In this document: positions 3,975 through 10,067 of the stretch, piece after piece | Layout: the number at the start of each line of letters is the position of its first letter | Position numbering within the stretch: position 1 is the first letter of the stretch | DNA from: Planctomycetota bacterium | GTDB lineage: Bacteria > Planctomycetota > UBA8742 > UBA2392 | Length of the DNA: 41,152 nucleotides | Direction: 5' to 3' | Assembly (NCBI GenBank): GCA_022071975.1 | Contig: JAJVIO010000007.1 | Location: 113,997-155,148 of the forward strand | Position numbers and translations under genes: made by a program | Notes under the pieces: model-generated | The model's database searches: none | What the model was told of the DNA's origin: nothing | What the model saw: only the letters and a program-made list of their open reading frames with translations

Positions 3975-6026
3975 TTACTCCACTGCCGCCGCCAGTTCTT
4001 CCCACTTGGTGTAGGCTTCGGTGATCTGGGTTTTTACGGCCTGGAAGGCCTGGTTCAGCTTCTGGGCTTCTTCGGCGTTGGCTGTGCCTTCGGGGCTGAA
4101 GGCTTTGGCGAGCTCCGCCTCTAACTCCTTCTGCTTGGCCTCGAGCTTTTCGATGCGGGCTTCGAGTGCCTTCAGCTCGGTCTTCAGCTTGTGCTGCTCG
4201 CGCTGTTTGGCCTTCTGCTCTTCCCTCTGCTGCTTGGCCTCGCTGCGGCGCTCGGCCGCTGTCTTCTGCGAGTGCAACTGCAGCGTGCGCTTGGGGCCCG
4301 TGGCGGCCTGGGCGTGCTTCTGTTCCCACCATGCGGCGAAGGTGCCTGCGAAGGGTTTGAGTTTGCGGTCCTCCAGCTCGACCACGCGGTTCACCAGGCG
4401 ATCGAGGAAATAGCGGTCGTGGCTGATGATCAGCAGCGTGCCCTCGAACTCCTCCAGCATTTCCTCAAGCTGCTCGCAGGCCTGGATGTCCAAATGGTTC
4501 GTGGGCTCATCCAGCATCAGGAAATTCACCTTCTCGTGCACCAGGCGCGCCAGCTGCAGGCGCGACTTCTCGCCGCCGCTGAGGGTGCCGATGGCGCGGA
4601 TCAGGTCGTCGCGTGAAAACAGAAAGCGGTGCAGCACCTCCGTGGCCGGCTGGTACTCCAGGCCGCTGACGTTCATGAACCACTGGATCAAACTCAGCGA
4701 TTCATCCAGCGCGTGCTGGTGGATCTGCGAGTAGTCGCCGATCTTCGCGCTCTTGCCCGTGCGCAGCGTGCCGCGCACGTGAAACGGCCCGTCCTGCACG
4801 TCGATCGCCGGGTGCTCCCAGTCGGCATGGTTCAAAATCGCGCGAAACAGCGTGGTTTTGCCTGACCCGTTGGGCCCCACCAGAGCCACGCGCTCGCCGA
4901 AGGTGATGGAGAGCGCGGCGCCGTCTAACAGAAGTCGTTCCGAGTCCCGGGTCCCGTGTGCCGTGTCAACGGCAGTCGCATTTGACACGGGACTCGGGAC
5001 ACGGGACTCAGCACTGACACCGATGCTCAGCCCCTCGATCTCGAGCGCGATGTGGCCGTGGCGCTTGCCGCCGGTGAGCTGCGCGTGGAAGCGGTTCTCC
5101 GATTTGTCCGGCGCCTCGACCTTGTCCATCTGCTCCAGGCGCATGAGCATCGATTTCGCGCGCTTGGCCTGGCCCGGGTCGTCGTAGGCGCGCGCCATGT
5201 CCAGCAGCCGGCGGGCCTGGAACTCGATGCGCTTGATCAGCCGCTGCTGGCTCTTGTACTGGCGTTCCTGCAGGGCCAGCGCTTCCGCCTTCTGGCGCGT
5301 GAAGTCGCTGTAGTTGCCCGCCCAGCGCGTCACCTTGCGCCCGTGCAGCTCCCAGATCTCGGTCACGGTCGCGTCCAGCATGTGGCGGTTGTGGCTGACC
5401 ATCAGCACGGCCGCGCGCGTATTGCGAACGAACTGGATGAACCACTCGATGCCGTCCATGTCGAGGTGGTTGGAGGGCTCATCGAGCAGCATCAGGTCGG
5501 GGTCCTGCAGCAGGATGCGCGCGAGCCCGATGATGTTGCGCTCGCCGCCGCTGAAGCTCTCGATGGGCTGGGTCCAGGCGGCGCGCGGCAACCCGAGGCC
5601 CGTCAGCACCTGCTCGATGCGCTGCTCGACGCTGTAGCCGTCGGCGGTTTCGTGCTCGAGTTGCAGGCGCTCGTACTCGCTGAGCACGTTTTCGCCGGCG
5701 GCCATGCGCTCTTCCAGGGCGTGCAGCTTGGCTTGACGCGTCAAGTCTACCGCGAACAGCTTGCGCATTTCGTCCAGCACGGTGCTGCCGGGTTGGTACA
5801 CCAGTTCCTGGGCCTGGTAGGCGATGTTGAGATTGCGCTGGCGGTGGACTTCGCCGCTGGTGGGCTCGAGCTGGCCGATCAGCAGCTTCAGCAGTGTGGA
5901 CTTGCCGGTGCCGTTCTGGCCTATCAGGCCGATCTTGGCGCCGGGCTCGATGTCGAGTGAAACGCCGCGCAGCAGGTCAGGCCCGCCGTAGTGCATGTTG
6001 AGGTTGGAGACCGTGATCAGCGGCAT
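3975..6026 (-). CDS. ABC-F family ATPase (ribosome-associated type) with an in-frame repeat insertion
   Basis: A 683-residue protein with two ABC ATPase domains and no membrane segments, the ABC-F layout. Domain 1: Walker A GQNGTGKS (36-43), signature SGGERN, Walker B LMLLDEPSNHLD. Domain 2: GPNGSGKT, LSGGEKSRLQLARL, FLMLDEPTNHLD. The interdomain linker is long and charged, and the C-terminus (about 580-683) is a Lys/Glu/Ala coiled coil as in Uup/YheS-like proteins. Family members act on the ribosome or translation. Residues about 340-362, just before domain 2, are encoded by an inverted heptad-word repeat (4942-5009) and have the low-complexity look of inserted sequence. A 7-bp-period repeat also lies just upstream of the start. 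Confidence 0.9.
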   Translation of the reverse strand: MPLITVSNLNMHYGGPDLLRGVSLDIEPGAKIGLIGQNGTGKSTLLKLLIGQLEPTSGEVHRQRNLNIAYQAQELVYQPGSTVLDEMRKLFAVDLTRQAKLHALEERMAAGENVLSEYERLQLEHETADGYSVEQRIEQVLTGLGLPRAAWTQPIESFSGGERNIIGLARILLQDPDLMLLDEPSNHLDMDGIEWFIQFVRNTRAAVLMVSHNRHMLDATVTEIWELHGRKVTRWAGNYSDFTRQKAEALALQERQYKSQQRLIKRIEFQARRLLDMARAYDDPGQAKRAKSMLMRLEQMDKVEAPDKSENRFHAQLTGGKRHGHIALEIEGLSIGVSAESRVPSPVSNATAVDTAHGTRDSERLLLDGAALSITFGERVALVGPNGSGKTTLFRAILNHADWEHPAIDVQDGPFHVRGTLRTGKSAKIGDYSQIHQHALDESLSLIQWFMNVSGLEYQPATEVLHRFLFSRDDLIRAIGTLSGGEKSRLQLARLVHEKVNFLMLDEPTNHLDIQACEQLEEMLEEFEGTLLIISHDRYFLDRLVNRVVELEDRKLKPFAGTFAAWWEQKHAQAATGPKRTLQLHSQKTAAERRSEAKQQREEQKAKQREQHKLKTELKALEARIEKLEAKQKELEAELAKAFSPEGTANAEEAQKLNQAFQAVKTQITEAYTKWEELAAAVE
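4942..5009. repeat. Heptad-word inverted repeat inside the ABC-F coding sequence
   Basis: The arms 4942-4969 (GAGTCCC GGGTCCC ...) and 4982-5009 (... GGGACAC GGGACTC) are 28 nt each and complementary at 25 of 28 positions. They are separated by 12 nt. Both show a 7-bp period. The insertion keeps the ABC-F frame open and adds about 23 residues in the interdomain linker. The loop contains GGCAGTCG, a string also found in the loop of the 21000-21102 element. Confidence 0.85.
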
Positions 6027-6038
6027 AAGTACGGCAGA

Positions 6039-6066
6039 TTACAGGTTTTAGGTTGCAGCTTTCAGG
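6039..6066. repeat. Heptad-word series, single arm
   Basis: Four consecutive heptads TTACAGG, TTTTAGG, TTGCAGC, TTTCAGG lie between the divergent ABC-F and selenoprotein genes, 13 bp upstream of the ABC-F start. No good complementary arm was found nearby, so this may be a decayed or half element. An AT-rich patch at about 6080-6105 follows and may belong to a promoter. Confidence 0.5.
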
Positions 6067-6177
6067 GGGAGCCGCCTGCTTCATATTTAATACGTGTAAG
6101 GATGTCAGCGATTCGTCTACTACTAAGGTGCAACGCGGCAATCGTGTTGCAATAAGTGCATTATTCGGGAGATGCAG

Positions 6178-7179
6178 ATGATTCGGACCAAACGAGGCCT
6201 GCTGCTCGCGCTGCTGGCTGTGTCGTTGGCTCCGGCCGTTTTTGCCCAAGAGAACCAGGTCGGGCAGGAAGCGCCGGAGTTCAAGGCCACAGTATGCGTG
6301 AACCAGCCAGATGCCATCACACTGGAGCAATGTGCCGGCGAGGTAGTACTCATCAAGTATTGGGGCACCCGCTGAGGACCCTGCGTGAAGGCGTTGCCTT
6401 CAGTAGAGGCTCTTTGGCAAAAGAATAAGGATCGGGGTCTTCATATCTTCCTGGTGGAAAGCCAGGGGGGAACCTTGGAGGACATCTCCAAGTACGTGAA
6501 AGACCGCAAGCTGACCTTCCCGGTCGCCATCCGCAACGAGTGCGACTTCAACGGCTACAAGGGCGGCAACGGCCTGCCCTACGCCTTCGTGGTCGGCCCG
6601 GACGGCAAGGTGGCCTGGCAGGGTCGCGACGGCTACGCGGCGGTCATCCAGAAGGAACTTGAGCGCATCAAGTACCCGGGGCTGGGCAAGCTGGACGTGG
6701 CGCCCGAGCTGGTCAAGGCCGCCACGCAGTTCGGCACCGGCAACTATGCCGCCGCCCGCGAAGAGGCCATGAAGGTCAAAGAGAAAGAAGCCGACAACGA
6801 GACGGCCGTGGCGGACGCGGACTTCATCATCAAGCGCGTGGAAGCTCGGGTATCCAACCTTCGCGCGAAGATTGACGACGCGAAGTCCAAGCGCCGCTAC
6901 CACGAAGCGGTGGCGATGCTCGAGGAGTTGTCGGGCAAGGCCTACAAAGGAATGGAAGAGTCGGACAAGGCCGCAGAAGAGTTGAAAGAGCTGAAGAAGG
7001 ACAAGGACGTGAAGGCCGAGTTGAAGGCCTGGGCGGACCTGGCCAAGGTGCTTGAGGCCAACGAGAAGGCCAAGAGCGACGTGGACAAGAAGAAGAACCT
7101 GATCAAGTTTGTGGAGAAGAACGAGGGCATGGCCGCCGCCGATGAAGCCAAGGCGCTGGCCGATGCCATCTCGGGCTGA
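6178..7179 (+). CDS. TlpA-like thioredoxin-fold protein, predicted selenoprotein (TGA = Sec66)
   Basis: Exported protein of about 333 residues whose frame contains one TGA at 6373-6375. I chose the ATG at 6178 because GGGAG lies 6 nt upstream; ATG 6172 abuts it. Order: signal peptide MIRTKRGLLLALLAVSLAPA..FAQ; redoxin start VGQEAPEF; active site IKYWGTR-[TGA]-GPC; thioredoxin remainder (GLHIFLVES, GLPYAFVVGPDGKV); then a helical, Lys/Glu-rich region from about residue 180. The downstream paralogue has VKLWGTHCGPC, so the TGA replaces the first active-site Cys, giving U66-G-P-C69. Similarity continues unbroken after the TGA, and a SECIS-like hairpin follows. Expected role: extracytoplasmic thiol/selenol redox enzyme. 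Alternative: a Cys TGC to TGA nonsense mutation or sequencing error. Confidence 0.8.
6381..6406 (+). promoter_or_regulatory. Candidate bacterial SECIS hairpin
   Basis: Five nucleotides after the TGA (6373-6375) a stem forms: CTGC (6381-6384) with GTAG (6403-6406), a bulged G at 6385, then TGAAGGC (6386-6392) with GCCTTCA (6396-6402). This is 11 bp with one G-U pair and a GUU loop at 6393-6395. Known bacterial SECIS elements lie inside the coding region just after UGA, with a G at the first or second position of the apical loop roughly 16-37 nt downstream; here the loop starts with G after 17 nt. No comparable stem is visible at the same place in the CGPC paralogue. Confidence 0.75.
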
Positions 7180-7203
7180 TTCAGGCAGTCAGGACAATCG
7201 TGA

Positions 7204-7230
7204 AACGACCCGGCTGCCCGCCGGGTCGTT
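7204..7230 (+). terminator. Hairpin terminator after the selenoprotein gene
   Basis: A perfect 11-bp stem AACGACCCGGC (7204-7214) / GCCGGGTCGTT (7220-7230) with a 5-nt loop, ending in TTT. It starts 24 bp after the stop. The T tract is short, so it may attenuate rather than fully end transcription before the next paralogue. Confidence 0.7.
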
Positions 7231-7279
7231 TGCGTTGACGGCTCCGGCTAACTCATTCAACAACAGAACGGAGCCAATG

Positions 7280-8275
7280 ATGAAGACGATGATTGCAATG
7301 CTGCTGGCCTGCGCGCTGGCGCCGGCGCTGCTGGCCGGCAACACACTGACGGGCAAGGAGTGCCCGAACTTTTCGGCCACGCGGTTCATCAACCCGCCGG
7401 CTGACGGCAGGACCAGCTTTGAAGACTGCAAGGGCGAGGTGATCCTGGTGAAGCTGTGGGGCACGCACTGCGGGCCCTGCCTGCGCAGCATGCCGGAGGT
7501 GCAGGCGCTCTGGGAAAAGTTTGAGGGCAAGGGCCTGCACATCTTCATGGTGGAGCGCCAGAACAGCAGCGAGGCCGACATCCAGAAGGTGTACGACAGC
7601 AAGGGGTTGACCTTTCCGCAGGTGCTGGAAGGCGACATGGGCGGTTTCCCCGGCGTGGGAACCATCCCGTACGCCTACGTGATCGGCGTGGACGGCAAGG
7701 TGATCTTCGAGAACAACACCGGCTACGGCGCGGTGATTGAGCGGGAAATCGAGAAGATCAAGTACCTGGGCCTGGGCAAGAACGACGTGGCGCCGGGCCT
7801 GGAGAAAGCCGCCACCAGCTTCGCGAAGAAGGACTACGCCGCCGCCCGCGAAGAGGCCCAGCGGGCTAAAGACAAGGAAGGCGCGGGCGAGGACGTGGTC
7901 GCTGACGCGGACTACATCATCGGCCGCGTGGACGCCGTGATCGCCAACCTGCGCAAGCGCATCGACGCCGCCAAGGCCGAACGCCGTTACCACGAGGCGA
8001 TCGCGCTGCTTGGGGAGCTGTCCGGCAAGGAATTCAAGGGCATGGAGGCGGCAGCCACGGCCGCTGATGAGCTGAAAGAGCTGAAGAAGGACAGAGCGGT
8101 CAAGGAAGAACTGAAGGCCTGGGACGCGCTGGCCAAGACACTGGAAGCCAACGAAAAGGCCAAGAGCGCGGCGGACAAGAAGAAGAACCTGGAGGCTTTC
8201 ATCAAGAAGTACGAAGGCGCGGCGGCAGCCGGCGACGCACAGAAACAACTGGAATCCCTGGGCGCGGAAGAGTAA
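7280..8275 (+). CDS. TlpA-like thioredoxin-fold protein with CGPC active site
   Basis: A 331-residue paralogue of the preceding gene. The ATG at 7280 is preferred because GGAG lies 6 nt upstream; ATG 7277 is possible. It has signal peptide MKTMIAMLLACALAPALLAG, redoxin-like N-terminus, WGTHCGPC with Cys64 and Cys67, GLHIFMVERQ, a cis-Pro region near IPYAYVIGVDGKV, and a C-terminal Lys/Glu-rich helical region (RRYHEAIALLGELSGKEFKG) very like its neighbour. Expected to be an exported thiol-disulfide oxidoreductase; the helical part may be a TPR-like interaction domain. It sits between two similar hairpin terminators, suggesting duplication of gene plus terminator. Confidence 0.9.
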   Translation: MKTMIAMLLACALAPALLAGNTLTGKECPNFSATRFINPPADGRTSFEDCKGEVILVKLWGTHCGPCLRSMPEVQALWEKFEGKGLHIFMVERQNSSEADIQKVYDSKGLTFPQVLEGDMGGFPGVGTIPYAYVIGVDGKVIFENNTGYGAVIEREIEKIKYLGLGKNDVAPGLEKAATSFAKKDYAAAREEAQRAKDKEGAGEDVVADADYIIGRVDAVIANLRKRIDAAKAERRYHEAIALLGELSGKEFKGMEAAATAADELKELKKDRAVKEELKAWDALAKTLEANEKAKSAADKKKNLEAFIKKYEGAAAAGDAQKQLESLGAEE

Positions 8276-8290
8276 TCCGCACAGCGCCCG

Positions 8291-8317
8291 ACGGCCCGGC
8301 CAATGTGGCCGGGCCGT
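8291..8317 (+). terminator. Hairpin terminator after the CGPC paralogue
   Basis: Stem ACGGCCCGGCC (8291-8301) / GGCCGGGCCGT (8307-8317), extendable by one A-T pair, loop about 3 nt, followed by TT then GCGTTG. The sequence after the stem (GTTTGCGTTG) is the same as after the previous terminator. Confidence 0.7.
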
Positions 8318-8386
8318 TTGCGTTGCGGCGGTTTGTCCGTGAATCCTGACGGCAGGGGACTTAACCTGCGTACAGGAGGATGGACC

Positions 8387-9394
8387 ATGCTTACCCGTGC
8401 TGCGCTTGCGCTGCTGGTGCTGCTGGCTTGCCCGCTGTGCGCCGACGCACTGAAGGTCGGCCAGGAAGCGCCGAAATTCAAGGCCGGCGGCAACATCGTC
8501 AACCCGCCCGAGTTCGCCCGCGAACTCAAGGACAGCATCGGCGACGTCATCCTGATCTATGAGTGGCACAACCGCGACGGCACACGCGCCGGCCTGGCAG
8601 ACATCCAGAAATACCACGACAAATGGAACGGCCGCGGACTGCAGGTGTGGACCATCCACCGGCTGGACTTCGAGAAGTACCCCGAAGTTGACATCCTCGC
8701 GCGCAACGAGGGCTGGACCTTCCCCATCTGCATGGGCGGCTTCTATGACGAGAGCAACGACTTCTTCGGCTACAAGGACGGCAAGTCGTTCCGCACCACG
8801 GTGGTAGGTATCGACGGCAAGGTCGCCTACTACGGCAAAGACTCCGGCTGGAAAGCCGCCATGGACGCCGAGCTGGCCAAGGTGGTCTACCCCAACCTGG
8901 GCAAGCACGCGGTGTCCGACGGCGCCAAGGGACCGGCCGGTGACTTCGCCGAGCGCAAGTTCGGCAAAGCGCTGGTTGCCTGCGAAAAGCTGCTGGCCGG
9001 CGAGTTGCCTGACGACGTGAAGGCGGACGTGAGCCTGGTACAGCAGCGCGCGAACGAGCTGGCGGAAAAACGGCTCGAGCGCATCAAGGCCTGGAAGGAA
9101 GACAAACGCTACGACCTGGTGATGAAGACGCTCGAGGCGCTTGCCGGCGAGTACAAGACCCACCAGATCGGCACCGACGCCGAGGCCGAGATCAAGGCGC
9201 TCAAGAAGGACAAAGAGATCAAGAAAGAGCTGGGGGCCTTCGAGGCGCTCGACAAGCTGATCGCCAAGGACGGCAAGACCGATCCCCAGGGCTTCGTCAA
9301 CGCCCTGCGCGAGTTCGCCAAGCAGCAGAACCGCTTCCGTGCCGGCACCGTCGCCACGGAGCTGGCCGACCGCATCAAGGCCTACATGGAATGA
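8387..9394 (+). CDS. TlpA-like thioredoxin-fold protein lacking the CxxC cysteines
   Basis: A 335-residue third paralogue. The start at 8387 follows AGGAGGA at 6 nt spacing. Signal peptide MLTRAALALLVLLACPLCADA, then LKVGQEAPKFKAGG. At the place of WGTxCGPC it reads YEWHNRDGTRAGL (about residues 58-70), so both redox cysteines are missing. The fold otherwise continues (GLQVWTIHRLDFEK, TTVVGIDGKVAYYG) and ends in the same type of charged helical region (RIKAWKEDKRYDLVMKTLEAL). It is probably not a dithiol oxidoreductase; a binding, chaperone or scaffolding role beside the two redox paralogues is an inference. Confidence 0.85.
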   Translation: MLTRAALALLVLLACPLCADALKVGQEAPKFKAGGNIVNPPEFARELKDSIGDVILIYEWHNRDGTRAGLADIQKYHDKWNGRGLQVWTIHRLDFEKYPEVDILARNEGWTFPICMGGFYDESNDFFGYKDGKSFRTTVVGIDGKVAYYGKDSGWKAAMDAELAKVVYPNLGKHAVSDGAKGPAGDFAERKFGKALVACEKLLAGELPDDVKADVSLVQQRANELAEKRLERIKAWKEDKRYDLVMKTLEALAGEYKTHQIGTDAEAEIKALKKDKEIKKELGAFEALDKLIAKDGKTDPQGFVNALREFAKQQNRFRAGTVATELADRIKAYME

Positions 9395-9422
9395 GCCGGC
9401 AGCGCGCTTCGTTGCAACTGGC

Positions 9423-10067
9423 ATGACGGACTTCAACTCCGAGCGCGAGAAGATGGTGGCGCGGCAGATCGCGGCCCGCGGGGTGAAGGACCCGCGGGTG
9501 CTGCAGGCCATGCGCGAGGTGCGGCGCGAGGAGTTCGTGGACGCGCTGCGCGCGCACTATGCCTACGACGACGGCCCGCTTCCCATCGGCAAGGGCCAGA
9601 CCATAAGCCAGCCCTACATTGTCGCCTGGATGACCGAGCTGCTGCAGATCGGGACCGATGACATTGTGCTGGAAATCGGCACCGGCTGCGGCTACCAGAC
9701 GGCCGTGCTGGCAAGGCTGGCGAAACACGTCTACAGCATGGAAAGAATCGCCGAGCTTTCACAGCAGGCCGCGCTGAACCTGGCGCGGGCCGGGGTCACG
9801 AATGTCACGCTGGCGGTTGGCGACGGCTACGAGGGCTGGCCTGAGCACGCGCCCTACCCCTGCATCATCTCGGCGGCGGCGCCGACGGATGTGCCGGAAG
9901 CCTTGACGCGTCAACTTGCGCCGGGCGGTCGGCTGGTGCTGCCGGTGGGCGGGCGCAGCTTCCAGGAGATGGTGCGCGTGACGAAGCAGCCCGACGACAG
10001 CCTGAAGCGCGAATACCTGGGCAACGTAGCCTTCGTGCCGCTCGTGCACGGGATAGAACGCCGGTAG
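9423..10067 (+). CDS. pcm: Protein-L-isoaspartate O-methyltransferase
   Basis: A 214-residue cytosolic SAM-dependent methyltransferase that repairs isoaspartyl residues in aged proteins. Motifs: N-terminal REKMVARQIAARGVKDPRVLQAM, the family signature GQTISQPYIVAWMTELL, the SAM-binding VLEIGTGCGYQTAVLA, and IISAAAPTDVPEALTRQL, followed by PGGRLVLPVG. The length is normal. The ATG at 9423 begins MTDFNSER; a longer frame from 9339 overlaps the upstream gene and adds no conserved sequence. The gene starts 28 bp after the upstream stop and has only a weak ribosome binding site, so it may be co-expressed with the upstream paralogues. Confidence 0.95.
   Translation: MTDFNSEREKMVARQIAARGVKDPRVLQAMREVRREEFVDALRAHYAYDDGPLPIGKGQTISQPYIVAWMTELLQIGTDDIVLEIGTGCGYQTAVLARLAKHVYSMERIAELSQQAALNLARAGVTNVTLAVGDGYEGWPEHAPYPCIISAAAPTDVPEALTRQLAPGGRLVLPVGGRSFQEMVRVTKQPDDSLKREYLGNVAFVPLVHGIERR

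Follow-up and report, generated by a model that had tools for sequence, protein, structure and literature searches.

Introduction

Oxidoreductases of the ResA/TlpA/DsbE family carry an N-terminal export signal, and the protein considered here is likewise predicted to have one. It is encoded at positions 6178–7179 of a 41,152-nucleotide stretch of DNA (the window) from a Planctomycetota bacterium (GenBank assembly GCA_022071975.1, contig JAJVIO010000007.1, positions 113,997 to 155,148), and its reading frame contains a TGA codon that we propose is read as selenocysteine (Sec, U). UxxC TlpA-like selenoproteins are an already known kind: Table 1 of a 2026 review (PMC13188914) lists UxxC selenoproteins of the cd02966 thiol-disulfide isomerase-like and PF08534 Redoxin families, so that an earlier note on this DNA, made from the sequence alone, overstated matters in calling an exported TlpA-type Sec protein unusual. 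The cd02966 protein, from the Sargasso Sea survey, and the PF08534 family share with the window protein a thioredoxin domain of the TlpA/redoxin class and the UxxC motif (PMC13188914, PMC1088965); the likeness drawn here is one of domain class and motif, and these families may overlap with the one described here. The UGC-containing TlpA selenoprotein of the same Table 1 and the WAxxUGC ResA-like family NF041054, which at a guess are one family, also combine a ResA/TlpA-like domain with Sec. Their motif, however, is UGC where the window protein has UGPC, and the latter scores only 20.1 against NF041054 (cut-off 300). Thioredoxin-like (seleno)proteins of the VPGUxxT family, type 1 (NF041382), have a homologous C-terminal helical domain (E 9.2e-24; 77 of 101 members), but the match is restricted to this tail (84.4 bits, cut-off 350) and the VPGUxxT motif is absent from the window protein. 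Selenoproteins have been reported in two planctomycetes (PMC4807772).

Comparison with ResA/TlpA/DsbE-type oxidoreductases (4nmu, 1st9, 1jfu) reveals the same thioredoxin fold, spanning approximately residues 24–165, and the same position of the CxxC motif. The window protein differs in the predicted Sec at the first Cys and in an extra helical tail of 165 residues, for which Foldseek returned no match at E ≤ 0.001. Both the AhpC-TSA (47.8, cut-off 26) and Redoxin (43.9, cut-off 26.6) profiles are exceeded, the fold test classes the protein as ResA-like, and its score against ResA itself (NF002854; 72.4 bits) lies below the NCBIfam cut-off of 170. What appears to be new, judging from sequence, is a planctomycete family, multicopy and with a TPR-like tail, in which a tandem Cys copy lies nested among Sec forms; in the open-licence literature searched, we found no mention of a planctomycete family with this tail and tandem arrangement.

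An in-frame TGA codon shared across Planctomycetota

We infer that gene 6178–7179 encodes a selenoprotein in which TGA 6373–6375 is read as Sec, aided by the hairpin that follows it, and we place the probability of this reading at roughly 0.93. It is supported by (I) the position of the in-frame TGA, (II) the recurrence of this TGA in 110 of 153 distinct homologues, (III) signs of selection on the hairpin, and (IV) genes for tRNA-Sec, SelA, SelB and SelD in the same genome.

Translated through the TGA, the frame from ATG 6178 yields 333 residues, with U66 within WGTR-U-GPC. As described in the earlier note, the TGA stands opposite the first Cys of the adjacent paralogue's WGTHCGPC, and this is the first CxxC residue of the ResA/TlpA-like thioredoxin domain. 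Beyond it the frame does remain open, for 267 sense codons before the terminal TGA at 7177–7179; the 268 codons given previously include the stop.

A profile built from seven members has matches in 308 of the 392 genomes sampled from the phylum (E ≤ 1e-15). At most five candidates were scored per genome, and the counts below refer to the matches listed, from 84 genomes (65 with TGA, 19 without). After removal of rows without an aligned site and of duplicates over the site region, 170 profile alignments left 153 distinct homologues; two named metagenome-assembled genomes (MAGs; L059, L060) were treated as duplicates of L030 and L032, and three listed matches (G068:C95:12852, G068:C95:13918, G120:C3:277516) were covered partly or not at all. 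The codon at the aligned site is TGA in 110 homologues, TGC in 24, TGT in 6 and another sense codon in 13, and never TAA or TAG, while the remaining in-frame stops within the aligned stretches come at least 253 codons downstream, at the C-terminal end or close to it. Because the TGA recurs at one codon and other stops appear only near the C-terminal end, a TGA placed there by chance is excluded. Close homologues are thus not all Cys forms, as the earlier note had allowed they might be (110 TGA against 30 Cys codons), and the TGA at 6373–6375 is not a read error of a single genome, a possibility that it also considered, since relatives in 65 genomes share the TGA at this codon. An export signal is predicted by a crude hydrophobic-stretch test in 146 of the 153 homologues. 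In one TGA member (L093) the second motif Cys is replaced by Ser (U-G-P-S).

Selenocysteine machinery in the window's genome

The selA, selB, selC and selD genes, for which the earlier note had proposed a search, are all present in the genome (4.24 Mb, 91 contigs, 88.7% complete), selC being the tRNA-Sec gene. The latter (73.1 bits, anticodon TCA) is found where contig C28 ends and again where C48 starts. It is adjoined by selA (C28:57500-58858), with selB on C56 and selD on C12, and each of these three scores above its curated cut-off. The Rfam search for tRNA-Sec is loose and gave four matches over the cut-off, which ARAGORN identifies as two tRNA-Sec (one gene seen at two contig ends), a tRNA-Leu and a tRNA-Ser. 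The two tRNA-Sec ends (L001 and L002) are identical over their overlap and probably represent one gene at an assembly break; joining C28 and C48 would leave about 24 kb between selA–selC and a further Sec member of the family, on C48. The selD gene (L027) has an in-frame TGA of its own, at GAG-U-GCK, in agreement with the UxxK motif listed for selenophosphate synthetase (PMC13188914).

The genome contains ten matches to the window protein. Seven, the window gene and six others, have TGA exactly at the first motif residue (UGPC in five, UPPC in one, UGHC in one), and the three without an internal stop are the Cys neighbor, the third gene of the tandem, which lacks active-site Cys, and a remote match. 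Separately, an exported-looking thioredoxin-like gene on the minus strand of contig C45 (L162, 1300–1900) has a TGA in frame within FTATW-U-GPC, continues into a further C-terminal region, and likely encodes an additional selenoprotein. A weak VPGUxxT profile match at C50:8079-8234 contains two in-frame TGA codons.

A hairpin downstream of the TGA

Immediately downstream of the TGA we find the 11-bp hairpin with a GUU loop that the earlier note had described, starting 5 nt and with its loop 17 nt past the TGA; seven uninterrupted pairs surround the GUU and four more follow a one-base bulge. The stretch 6376–6413 folds at −17.9 kcal/mol (z −3.2), which none of 200 shuffles reached, whereas the equivalent stretch of the Cys paralogue is nothing unusual (z −0.06). 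The published model of the bacterial selenocysteine insertion sequence (bSECIS) calls for a hairpin 16–37 nt past the UGA, a G in the first two loop positions, a loop of 3–9 nt and a minimum free energy ≤ −7.5, all of which the window hairpin shows (PMC13188914). In Rfam, the whole window gave no match at the gathering score, and a permissive scan of 6100–6700 gave four sub-threshold matches, none of them to a SECIS family.

The codon that supplies the loop reveals a strong bias. Within the window's family it encodes Leu in 47 of 56 TGA rows and is TTG in 46 of those 47, compared with 199 of 1656 Leu codons (12%) elsewhere in the same genes (p = 1.5e-39, a value inflated by relatedness). TTG is kept in both main stem types and is found at this codon in none of the 30 Cys genes, of which only four have Leu there, all as CTG. 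Covariation is seen not in the stem type of the window gene (GAAGGC/GCCTTC, three-base loop) but in its sister type (TGCGGC/GCCGCA, four-base loop), for which we used 27 TGA rows; 33 have the model loop at +16, but five that do not differ over 36 bases and one whose loop is of another kind were excluded. In these rows the fraction of paired cells is 96.9%, and at three of the six pairs both partners vary; such double changes occupy 19 cells, where shuffling gives a mean of 3.7 (none of 500 shuffles as many) and slid controls no more than 8. In the window's family, the hairpin bears signs of selection at the RNA level.

Several observations weigh against the Sec reading. Our own bSECIS test, applied to the whole family, accepts 93 of the 110 TGA rows but is weakly specific, accepting 25 of the 43 non-TGA rows too; the model hairpin is missing from 17 TGA rows, nine of them in group f20; and folding energies relative to synonymous sequences separate TGA rows from the others weakly (Mann-Whitney p 0.021). 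Two of the five covariation measures are not distinctive (the number of pairs changed on both sides, matched or exceeded by 192 of 500 shuffles, and that of further pair types, by 26 of 500), and the rows were picked by loop type after the folds had been seen. Among the 65 genomes with TGA rows selA is detected in 61, and selB exceeds its cut-off in three of the remaining four, but in the fourth (77% complete) neither was detected. The presence of selA is also non-discriminating, since 16 of the 19 genomes with Cys forms only have it, as do 245 of all 392; its co-occurrence with TGA is consistent with the reading but does not prove it.

As to conservation of the hairpin, on which the earlier note had let its prediction depend, the element is kept in the window's family, with covariation in the sister stem type, while 17 TGA relatives do not have the model form. 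Because of these 17 rows and the weak energy test, we consider that the SECIS elements of some lineages either take another form or go unrecognized. The nine f20 members are L099, L101, L102, L103, L104, L106, L117, L118 and L120; selA is detected in eight of their nine genomes, and their Sec signal may be of another form.

Gene calls and database entries

A search of 5.8 billion proteins, in which the 7995 candidates sharing most words were scored, gave 135 matches, 120 of them listed. Realigned to the query alone by BLASTP, 88 of these 120 have E < 1e-30. As the earlier note anticipated, gene callers split the gene: 77 of the 88 listed proteins begin past the TGA site, 56 of them at residue 70, and standard calling on the window produces a 264-aa open reading frame (ORF) from GTG 6385. 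The other 11 span the site, and all have CGPC and an identity of only 49–55%, which is what the Cys copy would give; no full-length Sec form is among the matches listed. Should Sec be inserted, databases would contain dozens of planctomycete redox genes as headless proteins, many of them named hypothetical.

Function and alternative explanations

We envisage that SelB would bind the apical hairpin and deliver Sec-tRNA, and that the protein would be exported via its N-terminal signal. The U66 selenolate would then attack disulfides and C69 would resolve the selenosulfide, as in CxxC reductases, with electrons probably supplied by a DsbD/CcdA-type membrane protein and the TPR-like tail perhaps binding a partner or substrate. 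Sec could also be incorporated into a protein that acts as a peroxidase or handles metal or selenium instead of reducing disulfides, an assignment we consider unlikely, though deserving of some weight.

If the TGA were a genuine stop, or an error of sequencing or assembly, the locus would be a pseudogene or two ORFs. The 264-aa call and the predominance of such fragments among the listed database relatives fit this explanation, which is nevertheless highly improbable given that 110 distinct homologues, from 65 genomes, share this TGA at the equivalent codon. In four comparisons of the window gene with relatives, two of which (L030, L059) are apparently the same MAG, the ratio of nonsynonymous to synonymous substitution rates (dN/dS) is 0.06–0.11 upstream and 0.16–0.23 downstream of the TGA, and the fragments would start partway through the thioredoxin fold, without its first strands and without the signal peptide. 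A reassigned code or a suppressor tRNA by which TGA specifies a different amino acid would equally leave the frame open, but we give this next to no credence, since TGA terminates the window gene and several homologues, is confined within aligned homologues to the catalytic Cys position or the C-terminal end, and is absent as an internal stop from selA, selB and a DsbD-like gene of the same genome, which also encodes tRNA-Sec (anticodon TCA), SelA, SelB and SelD. Pseudogene, sequencing error and code reassignment were thus rejected on TGA recurrence in 65 genomes, dN/dS, usage of TGA as a stop and the Sec machinery. The selenoprotein interpretation of the earlier note is strongly supported at the level of sequence, and the tests it had set against itself turned out in favor of Sec.

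Tandem paralogues and probable replacement of Sec by Cys

Two paralogues follow the window gene in tandem (Table 1). In a quick tree of 134 of the 140 Sec and Cys rows (six shorter alignments were omitted), the distribution of the two states requires 10 changes, at least eight of them forced by starred branches. A careful tree of 51 of these 134 rows, picked by locus, unites seven tandem Cys copies in one clade (100/99), placed inside a 21-row clade (98/94) whose remainder is Sec forms and which itself belongs to a 28-row group of Sec forms with lower support (83/90); one Cys copy (G136) is placed elsewhere. Rooting with nine outside TlpA-like proteins failed, the outgroup not being monophyletic, and we argue for a direction of change only within the part of the tree around the window gene, with a five-row sister group of mixed state as root. 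Since the Cys clade is nested inside Sec clades, duplication followed by Sec-to-Cys replacement is the simplest reading, and the adjacent Cys copy probably arose in this way from a Sec gene. Such replacement is described as rare in bacteria and documented mainly for FdhA and SelD (PMC13188914).

Table 1. Coordinates of the features of the locus, in window positions.
Feature	Position	Strand	Basis or remarks
Predicted selenoprotein gene	6178..7179	+	ResA/TlpA-like thioredoxin domain and helical (TPR-like) C-terminal domain; 333 aa, Sec at residue 66
Predicted N-terminal signal peptide (MIRTKRGLLLALLAVSLAPAVFA)	6178..6246	+	Sequence; crude hydrophobic-stretch test
TGA codon, predicted Sec, first residue of U-G-P-C	6373..6375	+	TGA in 110/153 distinct homologues
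SECIS-like hairpin, loop GUU at 6393-6395	6376..6413	+	Folding energy against shuffles; TTG loop codon bias
C-terminal helical domain, TPR-like, common to VPGUxxT type 1 selenoprotein family	6685..7176	+	
Tandem paralogue with Cys (WGTHCGPC)	7277..8275	+	55% identical; nested among Sec forms in tree
Third tandem paralogue without either active-site Cys	8387..9394	+	Motif region DGTRAGL

Breadth, copy number and Sec/Cys switches make the family of interest. If Sec is inserted, the phylum has a multicopy selenoprotein family predicted to be exported; with Sec and Cys copies adjacent and several switches needed by the tree, the family offers a natural series for asking why Sec is kept or lost. 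More speculatively, and with odds that we consider to be against it as a whole, Planctomycetota might hold an ancient and expanded set of exported seleno-thioredoxins, with Sec ancestral in much of the family, repeated Sec-to-Cys origins including that of the tandem neighbor, and a Sec/Cys/Cys-less trio forming a periplasmic redox relay.

Across 6000–9600 we found no sigma-70-like promoter and two terminator-like sites, fewer than the shuffled mean of 4.1. Other genomes with the family likewise have a similar Cys-less third copy beside the Sec/Cys pair (L031, L032, L033). In addition, L067, L070 and L072 form a small Cys clade, nested among Sec members, in which CxxS (CTGS, CTTS) takes the place of CxxC.
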